Assembly: GCF_003944715.1 (NCBI RefSeq)
Contig: NZ_RWIT01000004.1
Coordinates: 62,001 to 126,000, forward strand
From: Hymenobacter rigui
Lineage (GTDB): Bacteria; Bacteroidota; Bacteroidia; Cytophagales; Hymenobacteraceae
Direction: 5' to 3'
Length of the DNA: 64,000 nucleotides
The position numbers and the translations under genes were made by a program. Positions 13,971 to 19,177 of this stretch are shown here, in pieces. The notes under the pieces were generated by a model. The model searched no databases. It worked only from the letters and a program-made list of their open reading frames with translations, and had not been told where the DNA came from. How positions within the stretch are numbered: position 1 is the stretch's first letter; each line of letters opens with the position of its first letter.

Positions 13971-13974
<4 letters not shown>

Positions 13975-14750
13975 CCCTCCAGCCAGCTCTTCACCGCCCC
14001 AGCTTTCTCGCGGCTCACCAGCACTTCGTCGCTGGGGGCGGGGTGGAGGTCCACCAGCAGCTTACCGTTGAAGTGCGGATGCAGGCGCTGCACGGCGGGC
14101 AGCTGGGCCAGGAGCTGGCGGTTGAGGCGGAAGAACTGGGCGGGGTCGAGCAGGCTTTCGAGCTGTTCCAGGGTGTACTCCACCACGAAGCGGCGGCCGT
14201 CGAGGGTGCAGAGGGTGGTGGTTTCGTGGCGGCTCTGGAACCAGGCGGCCTGGGTGGCGGCCAGCGGCAGCAGCTGCTCGCCGCTGCGCACCAGAAACCG
14301 GGTTTTGAACTGCCGCTCCGGCCGGGGCAGGGCGTCGAGCAGGCGCTCCAGGCGCTGGGCGGTATCGTCGGGGACGGGTGGGGTGGCGGTTGGGGTGCGC
14401 CATTCCTGCAACTTGGTGAGGGCCGCCGTCAGCTCGGCCAGCTTCACGGGTTTCAGCAGGTAGTCCACGCTGTTGGCCTTGAAGGCCCGGATGGCGTAGG
14501 CATCATAGGCCGTGGTGAAAATGACCGGGCTGCGCACCACCGTCTGCTCAAACACCTCTAGGCTCAGCCCATCGGCCAGCTGGATATCCGACAGAATCAG
14601 GTCGGGGGCGGGGTGCGCGTCCAGCCATTGCAGGGCCCCGGCCACGCTATCCAGCACGGCCAGCACCTGGGCCTCGGGCGCGGCTTGGTGCAGCAGCCGT
14701 TGCAGCCGCTCCGCGGCCGGATATTCGTCTTCGAGCAGGAGGACTTTCAT
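13971..14750 (-). CDS. LytTR-family response regulator
   Basis: This 259-residue regulator has receiver-domain residues E7/D8, phospho-acceptor Asp55 in DLILSDIQLADG, TTAYDAYAIRAF, and a Lys in DYLLKPVK. It ends in a LytTR DNA-binding domain (FLVRSGEQLLPLAATQAAWF, FFRLNRQLLA). It resembles the regulator at 11131 closely enough to suggest an old duplication. Its kinase partner lies upstream on the same strand (14886-15935), with a 24-bp-arm inverted repeat in the gap. The 3' end overlaps the hybrid kinase by 4 bp. Confidence 0.92.
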
Positions 14751-14763
14751 TGGTATATGGAGT

Positions 14764-14889
14764 GTAGCGCGAAGCCTTTGCTTCGCGCACGGCCGAACGC
14801 CAGACGTTCGGCGGTAAGTTAGGTAGTAAGCGTATTCTCGGTGCGGCCCGGACGGGCAACGGACACGCGAAGCAAAGGCTTCGCGCTAC
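14764..14889. repeat. inverted repeat, perfect 24-bp arms (14764-14787 / 14866-14889)
   Basis: The arms are exact reverse complements and each holds a smaller CGCGAAGC...GCTTCGCG palindrome. A second small palindrome (CGAACG...CGTTCG) lies in the spacer. The right arm covers the TAG stop codon of the kinase ending at 14886. The whole element fills the gap between kinase and regulator genes and looks like a small non-coding mobile repeat. Confidence 0.8.
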
Positions 14890-15935
14890 GGGCTGGCGTG
14901 GAGCTGCCGTTTTTCGTCGGGAACCAGCAGCGGCAATTGCACCTGAAACCAGCCGGCTTCCTGCGTTACCGCCACCGGCTGCGGGGCCTGCAGCAGCTCG
15001 TAGCGGTGGCGCACGTTGCGCAGACCGGTGCCGGTGCCGGGGGCGAGGCCGGCAGTGCGGGGGCGCAGGGTGTTGCGCACGGTGAAGTAGCCGGTGACCG
15101 GGTCGGCCGAGAGTTCCAGCTCCAGCGGGTGTTCCCGGGAGGTCACGTTGTGCTTCAGGGCGTTTTCCACCAGCAGCTGCACGCTCAGGGGCGCTACCCG
15201 GGCGGCGTGGGCCGCGGCCGGCACCTGCCAGCGCACCCGCAGATTGTCGCGGAAGCGGGCTTTGTGCAGGGCCAGGTAGGTTTCCACGAAGGCCAGTTCC
15301 TCGCTGAGTGGCACGGTGGGCTGGTCGCGGGCCAGCAGCACGTAACGGTACACATCCGAAAGCTGCTCCACAAAATCCTGGGCGGGCTCGTTGTCGGGCT
15401 CGATGAGGGCCGAGAGGGTGTTGAGCGAGTTGAACAGGAAGTGCGGGTCGAGCTGGCTTTGCAAAGCTTCCAGCTGGCTGCGGGTGCTGGCACTCTGCAG
15501 CTGCTCGGCGCGGCGCACGTTGTCGGCCCACTGCCGGAAGTAGTTCCAGCTTTCGTAGATGAGCTGCACAATGATGGTGGGTACCATGTTCAGGCCAAAC
15601 TCGGTAACCCATACCGAAACCGGCAGGTGAATGCCGCGCAACCTGGCCGAAATAGACAGCAGCACCACCGTTACCACCGCCGTAGTGGTGGTATTGATGC
15701 TGGCGAGCAGCCACAGCCGCTGCCGCGTTTGGTGCATGCCCGGAAACCGCCGGAACAGGATGGCCCACAGGGCCCGGCCCGATAACCAGAATACGGTAGT
15801 GAAGCTTAAAGAAACTGCCCAGGCCGCCAGAAACTCAGGTACCGACCGCACCTGCAGCAGCCCGCGGGGCAGCAGCACCAGCAAAGAGCCGATGGGAATG
15901 CCCCAGAGCAGCAGCAGACGGTCACGAAACGGCAT
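14886..15935 (-). CDS. LytS/YehU-like membrane sensor histidine kinase
   Basis: Taking the ATG at 15935 (a second ATG lies at 15944) gives 349 residues. Four hydrophobic helices fill about 5-130. The His_kinase box follows with His165 in LEALQSQLDPHFLFNSLNTL, and the ATPase domain with LLVENALKHN and GTGLRNVRHRYELL. It is the mirror image of the kinase at 9947. It should work with the LytTR regulator at 13971, although a repeat element separates them. The start overlaps the stop of the DUF2867 gene upstream, so those two are probably in one transcript. Confidence 0.88.
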   Translation of the reverse strand: MPFRDRLLLLWGIPIGSLLVLLPRGLLQVRSVPEFLAAWAVSLSFTTVFWLSGRALWAILFRRFPGMHQTRQRLWLLASINTTTTAVVTVVLLSISARLRGIHLPVSVWVTEFGLNMVPTIIVQLIYESWNYFRQWADNVRRAEQLQSASTRSQLEALQSQLDPHFLFNSLNTLSALIEPDNEPAQDFVEQLSDVYRYVLLARDQPTVPLSEELAFVETYLALHKARFRDNLRVRWQVPAAAHAARVAPLSVQLLVENALKHNVTSREHPLELELSADPVTGYFTVRNTLRPRTAGLAPGTGTGLRNVRHRYELLQAPQPVAVTQEAGWFQVQLPLLVPDEKRQLHASP

Positions 15936-16434
15936 GGGAGGCATACGGGGCCATGAAGCGGGGCCGGGCCCGGCGCAACAGTGCCCGCACCACGGCCCGG
16001 TGAAACGGGGCAATTCCGGCGAAATATACGCGCCCGGCCCAGTTGTGAAACTGTACGGCGGTGGTCAGGGCCACGGTGTGGGGCTCGGCCGTCAGCACGG
16101 CCACCCGGAAGTTGAGGTGCCGGTCGTCGAGGCCCAGCAGAACCTCCGTGGGCTGCACGGCATATATCCGAAAAGGCCCCAGCTGTCCGCCGGGTGCCAG
16201 CTGATCGGGTGCGGGCCCGGGCCGAAGCGTAGACCGTAAGCCTACCCAGGAAGCCAGGGTGTTGCGCAGGGCCAACAGGTGGCGCACCCAGCCCGGAGCC
16301 AAGTCGGGCCCAAACAGCAGGCGGGCAGCCTCCGAAGCCGGCAGAGCGGCCGTTACCGGCAGGCGGTACGTATCGTGGTAGTGCGGGGCGGGTAGGGCCG
16401 CAGCAAGCAGGCGGGCGGAGGCAGGATACGACAT
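15922..16434 (-). CDS. DUF2867 family protein
   Basis: This is a 170-residue soluble protein. Its C-terminal two thirds match the DUF2867 pattern: PGWVRHLLALRNTLASWVGL, then GLDDRHLNFRVAV, TAVQFHNWAGRVYF and IAPFHRAVVRALLRRA. The fold is thought to be a lipid- or ligand-binding barrel, but the function is unknown. Its 3' end overlaps the following kinase start by 14 bp, which suggests translational coupling and possibly a shared role. The 5' flank is AT-rich. Confidence 0.8.
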   Translation of the reverse strand: MSYPASARLLAAALPAPHYHDTYRLPVTAALPASEAARLLFGPDLAPGWVRHLLALRNTLASWVGLRSTLRPGPAPDQLAPGGQLGPFRIYAVQPTEVLLGLDDRHLNFRVAVLTAEPHTVALTTAVQFHNWAGRVYFAGIAPFHRAVVRALLRRARPRFMAPYASHAVS

Positions 16435-16526: not shown

Positions 16527-17471
16527 TTACCGGTTCTTCTGCACGAAGTCGGTTACGACCTGCCGGAACCGGTCGGGCTGCTCCTGGAAGGAGTTGTGCT
16601 TACCGGGCAGCGTAACTATCTGCTGGTGCGGGAAACGGAAGGTGGCGGCCGTAGCACCCGTCGTCCGGTCGTCTTTGCCCAGGATTATCAGCGCGGGCAT
16701 GGTGAGTTGGGCGGTGGCGGGGGCGTAATCCTGACCGTAATCAGCCAGGCGGCCGCTGAATACCTGCTGGGCAAAGTCGGAGTTGGCGGGTACGGCGCGG
16801 CTGGCGCGCATGGCCCGGGCGGCCAGCGAGTCGTGCGAGAATTGCAGCTGGCCGGCCAGCTTCTGCTGTTGCAGCGCACCCATCACCATGCCAAACCGCT
16901 GCATGGCGGGCAGGCCGGGGGCGGGGCGGGCGGCGGCGGGCAGCAGGCGGCTACCGTAGGCCACCATGCTATCCAGCCCGGCCACCGGGTTCAGCACGGC
17001 GTTGGTGAGCACCAGGGCCTGCACCCGCTGGGGGTATTTCTGGGCGTAAGCGGTGGCAATGGTGCCGCCGAAGGAGTGGGCCATGACCACCCATTTCTGT
17101 ACGCCCAGCTGCTGGCGCACTTCTTCCAGATCCTGCACCATGCGGGCCATCGAGTAGTTTTTGGTGCGGCTGCTGCCCGAGCGGCCACTGCCGCGCTGGT
17201 CCAGGTACACCATCTGCAGCTTATCTTCGAGGCGGTTGCCGCCCAGCTTCTCAAACGAGTAGCTACCCGCCCCCGGCCCGCCGTGCACAAACAGGCAGGG
17301 CGTACCCCTGCCCGCTACCTGCACAAATAGCTTCACCGAATCGGAAGTAAGCAGGGTGCGGGGGCCGGCAGCTACTATTGGTTGTCTCTGGGCGCGGGCG
17401 GTACCGGCCAACAGCATCAGGGCCAGCAGGAAAAAAGGAGTACGGACGGCGGAGTTGAGGAAGCGGAGCAT
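16527..17471 (-). CDS. exported alpha/beta hydrolase, proline iminopeptidase-like (S33)
   Basis: From the ATG at 17471 the product has 314 residues with a signal peptide (FFLLALMLLAGTARA). The S33 oxyanion motif HGGPGAG is at 63-69 and the typical DQRGSGRSG at 91-99. The nucleophile is Ser133 in AHSFGGT. The Asp lies in the GKDDRTTG strand and the catalytic His in LPGKHNSF near the end. The family includes proline iminopeptidases and esterases; the true substrate is uncertain. A longer frame to 17528 adds 19 residues before the signal peptide and is less likely. The folded RNA and terminator upstream may bear on its expression. Confidence 0.82.
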   Translation of the reverse strand: MLRFLNSAVRTPFFLLALMLLAGTARAQRQPIVAAGPRTLLTSDSVKLFVQVAGRGTPCLFVHGGPGAGSYSFEKLGGNRLEDKLQMVYLDQRGSGRSGSSRTKNYSMARMVQDLEEVRQQLGVQKWVVMAHSFGGTIATAYAQKYPQRVQALVLTNAVLNPVAGLDSMVAYGSRLLPAAARPAPGLPAMQRFGMVMGALQQQKLAGQLQFSHDSLAARAMRASRAVPANSDFAQQVFSGRLADYGQDYAPATAQLTMPALIILGKDDRTTGATAATFRFPHQQIVTLPGKHNSFQEQPDRFRQVVTDFVQKNR

Positions 17472-17564
17472 GCGAGTAGCGGTAGAGGATGGAAGAGTCA
17501 GAGGTAAGCCGTTAACTGATTCAAACATCCGCTTTCACCGTCGTATCTCCTGGCACAATCAGGG

Positions 17565-17630
17565 CGAAGCGTACCAGCCGCCCAGGTGAAGCGTACCAGT
17601 CGCCCGGGTGAACCGGTAAACGATACCACC
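17565..17630 (-). repeat. tandem terminal-repeat-like motifs (possible IS21-family end remnant)
   Basis: On the minus strand the motif TGGTAnCGnTTnACC or a close form occurs three times, spaced about 30 and 22 bases. Two of the copies form a 22-bp direct repeat (17565-17586 and 17587-17608). IS21-family elements carry several repeats of about 20 bp at each end, so this may be a relic of one. No transposase or second end is present. Confidence 0.4.
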
Positions 17631-17633
17631 AAA

Positions 17634-17676
17634 AAAGGCCCGGCTGCCGGCTCTTTGAGCCGGCAGCCGGGCCTTT
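17634..17676 (-). terminator. strong intrinsic terminator (20-bp perfect stem, 3-nt loop)
   Basis: The arms 17634-17653 and 17657-17676 are perfectly complementary and GC-rich. On the minus strand the stem is followed directly by a run of six T (17631-17636 as A on plus). It ends the candidate RNA and shields the hydrolase at 16527 from read-through. Confidence 0.8.
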
Positions 17677-17875
17677 GGCACCCCTCTCCGGTGCAAGGCA
17701 GGTTCCGGATGCGGGGGCTTCACGGGGTCCGGAACGGTTGCCGGCGGCCACTGCACCCAGCCCGGCGACTGTTGCAGCAGCCTTTGCCCGGTCGAGTAGC
17801 CAACCGTTCCAAACCCCGGAAGTGTGTTGGGCGGCCCGGTGGTTAGGGCCGCCCAACGTTCCCCCTCTCACCTGG
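17634..17875 (-). ncRNA. candidate structured RNA, about 240 nt, unidentified
   Basis: Between the hydrolase and leuB lies a GC-rich segment without a convincing gene. Read on the minus strand it folds into a 12-bp perfect hairpin (17826-17837 / 17846-17857). A long stem of about 20 bp follows (17718-17740 / 17801-17822), then a small 5-bp hairpin (17678-17682 / 17690-17694) and the terminator at 17634-17676. In the long stem the two non-Watson-Crick positions become G-U pairs only on the minus strand, which points to that strand as the RNA. A weak promoter-like TACCTATT lies at 17876-17883. I could not match it to 6S, RNase P, tmRNA, SRP or a known riboswitch. It could also be a cis-acting attenuator for the hydrolase. 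Confidence 0.45.
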
Positions 17876-17889
17876 GAATAGGTAGGCTG

Positions 17890-18018
17890 TTTGAAAAAAC
17901 GCCAGAACGTCATGCTGAGCTTGCCGAAGCATCTCTACCGCTTCGTTGAATTACTACTGCAGCGAAGCGGTAGAGATGCTTCGGCAAGCTCAGCATGACG
18001 TTCTGGCGTTTTTTCAAA
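17890..18018. repeat. long inverted repeat, perfect 56-bp arms (17890-17945 / 17963-18018)
   Basis: The arms are exact reverse complements separated by a 17-base spacer. The inner part (GTCATGCTGAGCTTGCCGAA and on to GCTTCG) is a dispersed repeat seen in part at 26039, 30480 and 33662. It lies just after the leuB stop and may also end that transcript from either side. Confidence 0.9.
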
Positions 18019-18052
18019 AGCCATTCAATCATTCAGCCGTTCCTCCATCCAC

Positions 18053-19177
18053 TTAGATAATCGTGCTCATGCCCAGGCGGATGTTGTTGCGGTGCATCTC
18101 GCAGTCGGCAATGTCCAGCACGGCGTAGGCAATGAAGCTGCCCACCTGCTCGGTGGTGTAGCGGGTGGCAGGGTTCAGCTCGGGCGTCACTACCTGCTGG
18201 TCGAGGGCGTGCTGCACGGCGTCGCGCACGGTGTCGGCTTCTTCCGGCAGCCCGAAGTGGTCCAGCAGCATGGCCGCCGACAGGATGGTGGCAATGGGGT
18301 TGGCAATGCCCTTGCCCTTGGCCTGCGGGTAGGAACCGTGAATGGGCTCGAACAAGGCCGCCGCGTCGCCCACCGAGGCCGAGGGCAGCAGCCCCAGCGA
18401 GCCGGCAATAACCGAGGCTTCGTCGGAGATGATGTCGCCGAACATGTTTTCGGTCAGAATCACGTCGAACTGCCGCGGGTTCAGGATAATCTGCATGGCG
18501 GCGTTGTCCACGAACAGGTAGTCGAGGGCCACGCTGGGGTACTGCGGGGCCAGCTGCTGCACGGTTTCGCGCCAGAGGCGGGAGGTTTCCAGCACGTTGG
18601 CCTTGTCTACCAGCGTGAGCTTGTGGCGACGGGTTTCGGCGGCCCGGAAGGCGCGGTGGGCAATCCGCTCAATCTCCGCCCGCGAGTAGGTGCAGTTGTC
18701 GTAGGCCGAGTTACCATCATCAAAGCGGCCCTTTTCGCCGAAATATACCCCGCCCGTCAGCTCCCGGAAGATGAGGATATCGGTGCCCTGAATCCGCTCG
18801 GCTTTCAGCGGGGAGTGCTCCAGCAGCTGGTCGTAGGCCGTAACGGGGCGAATGTTGGCGTACAGGCCCAGCTCCTTGCGCAGACGCAGCAGGCCCTGCT
18901 CGGGGCGCACCGGGGCGGCGGGGTTGTTGTCGTATTTTGGGTCGCCGATGGCCCCCAGCAGCACGGCGTCGGCCTGGTGGCAGGCGGCCAGGGTGGCGTC
19001 GGGCAGGGGCGCGCCGGTGGCGTCGATGGCGCAGGCCCCCATCAGCTGGTAGTCGAAGTGAAAGGCGTGCCCGAACCGGTCGGCCACGGCGTGCAGCACG
19101 CGCACGGCTTCCCCACATACCTCCGGCCCGATACCATCACCGGGCAACACCACAATGCGTTTGCTTAAAATATCCAT
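18053..19177 (-). CDS. leuB: 3-isopropylmalate dehydrogenase
   Basis: This 374-residue protein oxidises and decarboxylates 3-isopropylmalate with NAD+ to give 2-oxoisocaproate, the third leucine-specific step, in the cytosol. It starts with the classic [14 protein letters not shown]. It then has the [16 protein letters not shown] substrate segment, the [18 protein letters not shown] region and the metal site near [37 protein letters not shown] and the NAD-proximal region near the end complete it. Its start overlaps the leuD stop by 13 bp, so leuD and leuB are translationally linked. It is the last gene of the minus-strand leucine operon. Confidence 0.96.

Follow-up and report, generated by a model that had tools for sequence, protein, structure and literature searches.

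A very narrowly distributed candidate structured RNA in the 3' untranslated region of leuCDB in Hymenobacter

Known 3' hairpins and the leuCDB locus

One described parallel to the element analysed here is int/sib of phage lambda, where a retroregulatory hairpin at the 3' side is cut by RNase III. Like sib, the long hairpin behind leuCDB lies in a 3' untranslated region, downstream of the coding region, and is of a length that RNase III can bind; unlike sib, it belongs to a chromosomal biosynthesis operon and lies before that operon's terminator. The length expected of a sib-like element behind its regulated gene, a hairpin spanning at least two helical turns, is reached with 22-23 stem positions in four species. 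A second parallel is offered by small RNAs that derive from 3' untranslated regions and end at intrinsic terminators, putative examples of which are reported for Bacteroides thetaiotaomicron (PMC7366714). These share with the leuCDB element the 3' position and the terminator end, but the intergenic small RNAs of that paper average about 35% GC, whereas the leuCDB element is a long GC-rich duplex. The same source states that Hfq and ProQ lack an obvious homologue in Bacteroides. REP-like and miniature palindromic repeats are likewise palindromic, intergenic and located behind stop codons; the long stem differs from them in its single copy per genome, its fixed locus, its invariant inner motifs and its G-U bias. 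Finally, comparative genomics has produced lineage-restricted candidate structured RNAs (PMC2864571, PMC8040213), which also have a conserved fold without known function, although the long stem comes from only four species and its covariation support is thinner.

The window, a 64-kb stretch of the 5.28-Mb Hymenobacter rigui genome, encodes on its minus strand, in this order, leuC, leuD, leuB, the structured segment, an alpha/beta hydrolase, a DUF2867 protein, a His_kinase sensor and a LytTR response regulator. The segment from 17883 to 17631 is the 3' untranslated region of leuCDB and closes with the terminator of that operon. Its features and those of its surroundings are as follows.

18053-19177, minus strand: leuB (3-isopropylmalate dehydrogenase; Pfam Iso_dh, 6.4e-124), last gene of leuC-leuD-leuB
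17888-18020, no strand assigned: dispersed palindromic repeat directly behind leuB, arms of 64 nt, 95% complementary
17826-17857, minus strand: 12-bp hairpin, arms 17826-17837 and 17846-17857 (12 nt, 100% complementary), loop of 8
17718-17822, minus strand: long-stem element, with outer stem P1 (17822-17801 with 17740-17718), inner stems, tip and internal-loop motif
17769-17778, minus strand: invariant tip GCUGCAACAG, a GCUG-CAA-CAGY hairpin in the consensus fold, identical in all four carriers
17741-17747, minus strand: invariant CCGCCGG, 3' side of the internal loop in the consensus fold, identical in all four carriers
17678-17694, minus strand: small hairpin (GCACC-GGAGAGG-GGUGC, loop G-rich) immediately before the terminator; its exact sequence occurs once in the genome
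17631-17676, minus strand: intrinsic terminator of leuCDB, perfect 20-bp stem (17634-17653 with 17657-17676), loop of 3, six T at 17636-17631
17522-17606, minus strand: hydrolase upstream region, with TTCRCCC direct repeats at 17563-17606 (a third copy lies upstream) and the -7-like GATGTTTG at 17529-17522

A sequence-only reading of this DNA had described three minus-strand structures, namely the 12-bp hairpin, a stem of about 20 bp and a terminator with a T-run, and all three are present. An inverted-repeat scan gives the long stem as 17723-17740 with 17801-17818 (18 nt, 89%, gap of 60), and with one bulge it extends to 22 pairs between 17801-17822 and 17718-17740. The two plus-strand mismatches of this stem both become G-U pairs on the minus strand, as that reading had said. 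The segment folds at -171.8 kcal/mol on the minus strand (z -8.85) and at -158.1 kcal/mol on the plus strand (z -6.84), and in neither case did any of 200 dinucleotide shuffles do as well. The terminator consists of a GC-rich stem followed by a T-run on the transcribed strand, at a position kept in relatives; a simple consensus terminator scan listed no site here, despite the plain hairpin and T-run. The 12-bp hairpin was seen only in the window's species, and the other three carriers of the long stem, H. perfusus (G093), H. metallilatus (G085) and genome G006, have a different sequence at that spot.

The palindrome adjoining leuB, about 130 bases long and near-perfect, lies outside the conserved element. 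It occupies at least about 40 places in the genome (80 hits on both strands, with 40 of 182 candidates scored), and it is found at leuB only in the window's species. The 3' side of leuB holds palindromes in several other species as well.

The earlier reading had been unable to place the segment among 6S RNA, RNase P, tmRNA, SRP RNA or riboswitches. This holds up against Rfam 15, whose covariance models gave no match at gathering score anywhere in the 64-kb window. With permissive filters, the window's stretch and the copies of two relatives returned sub-threshold hits only, the best for the window's stretch being Scr3202 at 26.1 bits of the 52 needed. The adjoining palindrome (17877-18025) comes nearer to a threshold, with AaHKsRNA41 at 85 bits against 97, and is still below it. 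ARAGORN found no tRNA or tmRNA gene in the window. A coding origin of the long stem was rejected: its lengths of 103, 105, 107 and 107 in the carriers mean that no reading frame is common to them. Among the papers listed by a literature search on small or structured RNA, none names Hymenobacter, which says little, and among those listed for leuB and 3'-derived small RNAs no title deals with this subject in Bacteroidota.

Distribution and preserved pairing of the long stem

A covariance model (R1) built from the three other carriers, with the window's copy left out, recovered the window's copy from its own genome (E=4.1e-8, 45.1 bits). At E up to 0.001, R1 matched four of 204 family genomes, once each; searches of more than 40 genomes used strict filters, which weak relatives could escape. 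Thus, the stem is a single-copy feature of each carrier genome, unlike REP- or MITE-like elements with their many copies. Used as DNA queries, the copies of H. perfusus and G006 gave strong matches only in carriers, the H. perfusus query additionally matching the shared small hairpin. Three further R1 hits, at E up to 0.1 in genus genomes, were inspected and rejected: one is another palindrome (G071), one lacks the tip (G030), and in the third (G005) the inner part alone matched, far from that genome's leuB. Multi-copy hits to the inner part in G028 and G109 fell in long repeated coding-like DNA, by eye a transposase, and were dropped as chance (six of ten listed places examined). In the sequence search behind these hits, run at E up to 1, at least 118 of 120 genomes were hit; the hits followed were those next to the hydrolase (G094, G093, G006) and those in multiple copies, and the remainder were taken, uninspected, as noise of a GC-rich query.

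In a leuB DNA tree, the non-carrier H. pini (G094) is sister to the four carriers (support 100/100), and within these the window's species groups with G006 and H. perfusus (82/87). A hydrolase protein tree has a somewhat different order, pairing the window's species with H. metallilatus (89/90) and leaving the rest open. Just 86 bases separate leuB from the T-run in H. pini, and the long stem is absent. Most simply, then, the stem would have been gained once, in the ancestor of the four Hymenobacter species, after the split from H. pini.

In H. metallilatus the long stem is interrupted at its top by a transposon of about 9 kb, with leuB on the far side of the insertion (locus L103, about 1705 to 2201, and locus L071, 1 to about 3727). 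The transposon has exact 33-base inverted ends and, by eye, resolvase-like coding and a 5-base target duplication; we take it to be of the Tn3 kind. When the flanks are joined across it, the same stem results. The split makes the element dispensable in that species and, together with the absence from the sister species, implies that any role it has is dispensable.

How well is the pairing kept where the letters differ? In a hand alignment of the four carriers the outer stem pairs at 22, 22, 23 and 22 of 23 positions. Between the window and H. perfusus, 12 of 22 letters differ in one arm and 15 of 23 in the other (27 of 45 in all), and yet eleven pairs are kept with both sides changed, three are kept with one side changed and a single pair is broken. 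When the same number of changes was placed at random, 22 pairs were reached in none of 20,000 trials. The minus-strand consensus fold of the four rows scores -49.2 with a conservation index of 0.84 (z -12.4, 0 of 300 column shuffles as good), against -26.4, 0.53 and z -5.3 for the plus strand; without the window's row the values are z -8.0 and -4.4. These figures come from an alignment that was fitted by hand to the structure, which favours the pairing result, and the covariation support comes from four sequences. The three similar rows on their own (H. perfusus, G006 and H. metallilatus) contain one compensated pair, and their pair count does not exceed that of shuffles (157 of 500); G006 and H. 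metallilatus differ at only 2 of 46 arm letters. An ungapped scan sees arms of 26 in G006 and 30 in H. perfusus, with some mismatches. For the inner part of the window's copy the best fold differs from the shared fold, which costs 0.6 kcal/mol more.

The mispairs of the long stem also bear a strand sign. On the minus strand its wobbles, 16 cells in 8 columns, are all G-U and none is A-C, while in 19 other palindromes behind leuB (20 were scanned) G-U and A-C stand at 11 to 7. The one-sided probabilities are 0.004 (binomial) and 0.048 (Fisher, against the 19 palindromes), for columns that are not fully independent. This bias favours selection on RNA but is no proof, since strand-biased C-to-T mutation could mimic it. 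The minus-strand structured RNA proposed from the sequence gained ground from the comparison with relatives, the check that the sequence-only reading itself had named, which brought out both conservation and pairing-preserving change. Because the pairing persists while the letters change, the long stem is probably a real but lineage-specific RNA element, and we regard it as a credible candidate structured RNA of very narrow distribution.

The main rival is that the stem is a DNA-level palindrome that does nothing as RNA: either a hairpin formed or an inverted repeat inserted at a tolerated spot behind leuB, and template switching during replication keeps its arms complementary. The spot does gather palindromes, including the dispersed repeat of the window and inverted repeats before the terminator in G095, G034, G003 and G104, and template switching is described as both making and mending hairpins (PMC8794818). 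The two arms of the window's copy have been rewritten wholesale. Third positions of leuB are 80-82% alike between the window and the other carriers and the stem arms are far more changed, so that a rewrite of the whole stem by template switching is plausible, and its pairs may stem from a few such events instead of many compensations. The transposon that interrupts one copy and the lack of covariation above shuffles in the three similar rows fit the same account. Against it, every one of the 16 wobble cells reads as G-U on the mRNA strand, the tip and internal-loop motifs are invariant, and the long stem is single-copy. Moreover, copying from an unchanged arm would leave one arm ancestral, but the change affects both arms of the window's copy and not one, so a single simple template switch would be insufficient, though several would do. 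On balance we give this account a minor but serious share of the probability. Should the stem be a mere palindrome, it would still be an example of how misleading statistics on base pairing can become where template switching readily occurs.

A possible action on the leuCDB message

The explanation that we favour, with about even confidence, is that the long stem is a young structured element of the leuCDB 3' untranslated region, which probably acts on processing of the mRNA 3' end or on mRNA stability. A -7 box of the form TAnnTTTG with 5 of 6 letters was sought between leuB and the stem in the carriers (in H. metallilatus, in the left flank), and none was found; the consensus is the one quoted in PMC7366714. 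With no promoter-like box there, and with a terminator right behind, the element is most likely carried on the leuCDB message, and we infer co-transcription with leuCDB and action in cis.

What could such a stem do on the message? RNase III-type double-strand RNases can bind duplexes of 22 bp or more. The stem reaches this length, which makes control of 3'-end cutting or decay its likeliest action. A double-strand RNase such as RNase III might cut the long duplex, or the duplex might instead protect the message from exonucleases; either way, the stem would set the place and speed of 3'-end cutting or decay, in a manner resembling retroregulation. The invariant tip and internal loop could serve as recognition sites, and the small hairpin and terminator would perhaps remain as a stable 3' fragment. 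In E. coli, RNase III sites occur in mRNAs, and cutting at them speeds decay, as PMC5371410 reports.

If this reading is right, the origin of a structured RNA could be dated at this locus, since four sister species have it and the next lacks it, and the copy interrupted by the transposon would serve as a natural knockout. The leucine genes would then also be subject to 3'-end control in the phylum of Bacteroides. A bolder version is a long shot: the stem would belong to a recent class of structured RNA that senses a partner, or is bound, through its tip and internal loop and sets the fate of the leu mRNA from the 3' side, the window's stem having been rewritten by a few template switches with pairing kept. 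Were this true, the locus would be a natural test case for RNA stems jumping through sequence space.

Small hairpin, terminator and hydrolase control region

The long stem is followed by two structures with a wider distribution. A strong leuB match was present in 89 genus genomes, and we surveyed the 3' side of the best 30 of these leuB loci. In 21 of the 30 (L117-L137), all with leuB identity of 87% or more, the terminator is preceded by a small hairpin whose loop reads GGGG or GGAGAGG; in the other nine (identity of 85% or less) no small hairpin was seen in the stretch inspected by eye. The hairpins were identified by eye from single-sequence folds, the one in H. metallilatus being imperfect. 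Their stem letters vary and still pair, as in ACCCCA/UGGGGU, ACCUCA/UGGGGU, GGGU/ACCC, GUACC/GGUAC and GCACC/GGUGC. The small hairpin and the terminator are older than the long stem.

Attempts to follow the small hairpin beyond leuB gave little. When six genomes were searched for the pattern of the GGGG-loop hairpin, exact matches lay only at leuB (G095, G104), and with two mismatches allowed there were 49 matches against 43 for a reversed control. Model R2, for which 16 of the 17 distinct sequences of small hairpin and terminator were used (a near-duplicate was omitted), captured the terminator stem alone and was left unused for searching. Kissing of the G-rich loop with the C-rich internal loop, considered by eye, was rejected, the window's copy being without matching letters.

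A G-rich loop of this kind could also belong to a regulatory small RNA cut from the 3' end of leuCDB, in which the stem is processed and a 3' piece pairs with other messages through the tip or the G-rich loop. The strong terminator at the end and the presence of the loop in 21 of the 30 leuB loci are in keeping with such an RNA, and putative 3'-derived small RNAs are reported for B. thetaiotaomicron (PMC7366714). On the other hand, the long stem is missing from 17 of the 21 small-hairpin loci, so it would be an accessory to that RNA, and we consider this account improbable.

The gene that follows the terminator is the alpha/beta hydrolase. Among 30 hydrolase loci, leuB stands upstream in tandem in 14, the window included, within the 1.5 kb of flank examined, and in all 14 syntenic loci a GC-rich hairpin with a T-run was seen by eye behind leuB; in H. 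metallilatus, leuB is separated from the hydrolase by the transposon. Seen from leuB, the hydrolase comes directly after it in 20 of the 21 small-hairpin loci (one with the transposon between) and in none of the nine others. In the remaining small-hairpin locus (G137) the best hydrolase match reaches only E 8.9e-12.

The hydrolase ATG is at 17471, 160 bases downstream of the terminator's end. The GATGTTTG box has 5 of 6 letters of the -7 consensus and a poor -33 partner. In 11 of 14 loci the box is GATGTTTG, and in the other three GAGGTTTG or GAAGTTTG, that is, GA(T/G/A)GTTTG. The TTCRCCC repeats stand 21-22 bases apart in 13 of the 14 syntenic loci, and the last repeat starts 39 bases before the box in 12 of the 14. 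Together, repeats and box resemble a control region that belongs to the hydrolase itself. The TTCRCCC repeats may be the operator of the LytTR response regulator, which is encoded nearby together with a His_kinase sensor (13971-16013).

Two further accounts of the segment take up suggestions of the sequence-only reading. One is a trans-acting RNA gene with a promoter of its own, which is so far unsupported and very improbable: a strong isolated fold plus a terminator would suit it, but the position behind leuB is fixed, a scan of 17300-18200 found no sigma-70-like site, and the -7 box with 5 of 6 letters sought upstream of the stem did not appear in the carriers (in H. metallilatus, in the left flank). 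The other is a cis element of the hydrolase at 16527, either an attenuator, as that reading had suggested, or a gate for read-through from leuCDB. The shared strand, the terminator upstream of the hydrolase and the pairing of small hairpin plus terminator with an adjacent hydrolase in 20 loci speak for it, the nine loci without the hairpin having no hydrolase adjoining leuB. However, these 21 small-hairpin loci also rank highest in leuB identity, so the hydrolase association can be put down to relatedness too, and kinship and neighbourhood cannot be told apart here. The long stem itself occurs in four species only. A promoter-like box and TTCRCCC repeats occupy the 160 bases between terminator and hydrolase, and relatives share this layout; the hydrolase's promoter-like region is therefore beyond the terminator, which makes an attenuator unlikely; we see scant chance for either form of hydrolase control.

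A more distant group of leuB loci (L138-L140, L145 and L146, from G091, G082, G060, G084 and G068) has another shared terminator, with CCCAGTCTGGG-like or ACCAGTCTGGT-like tips.
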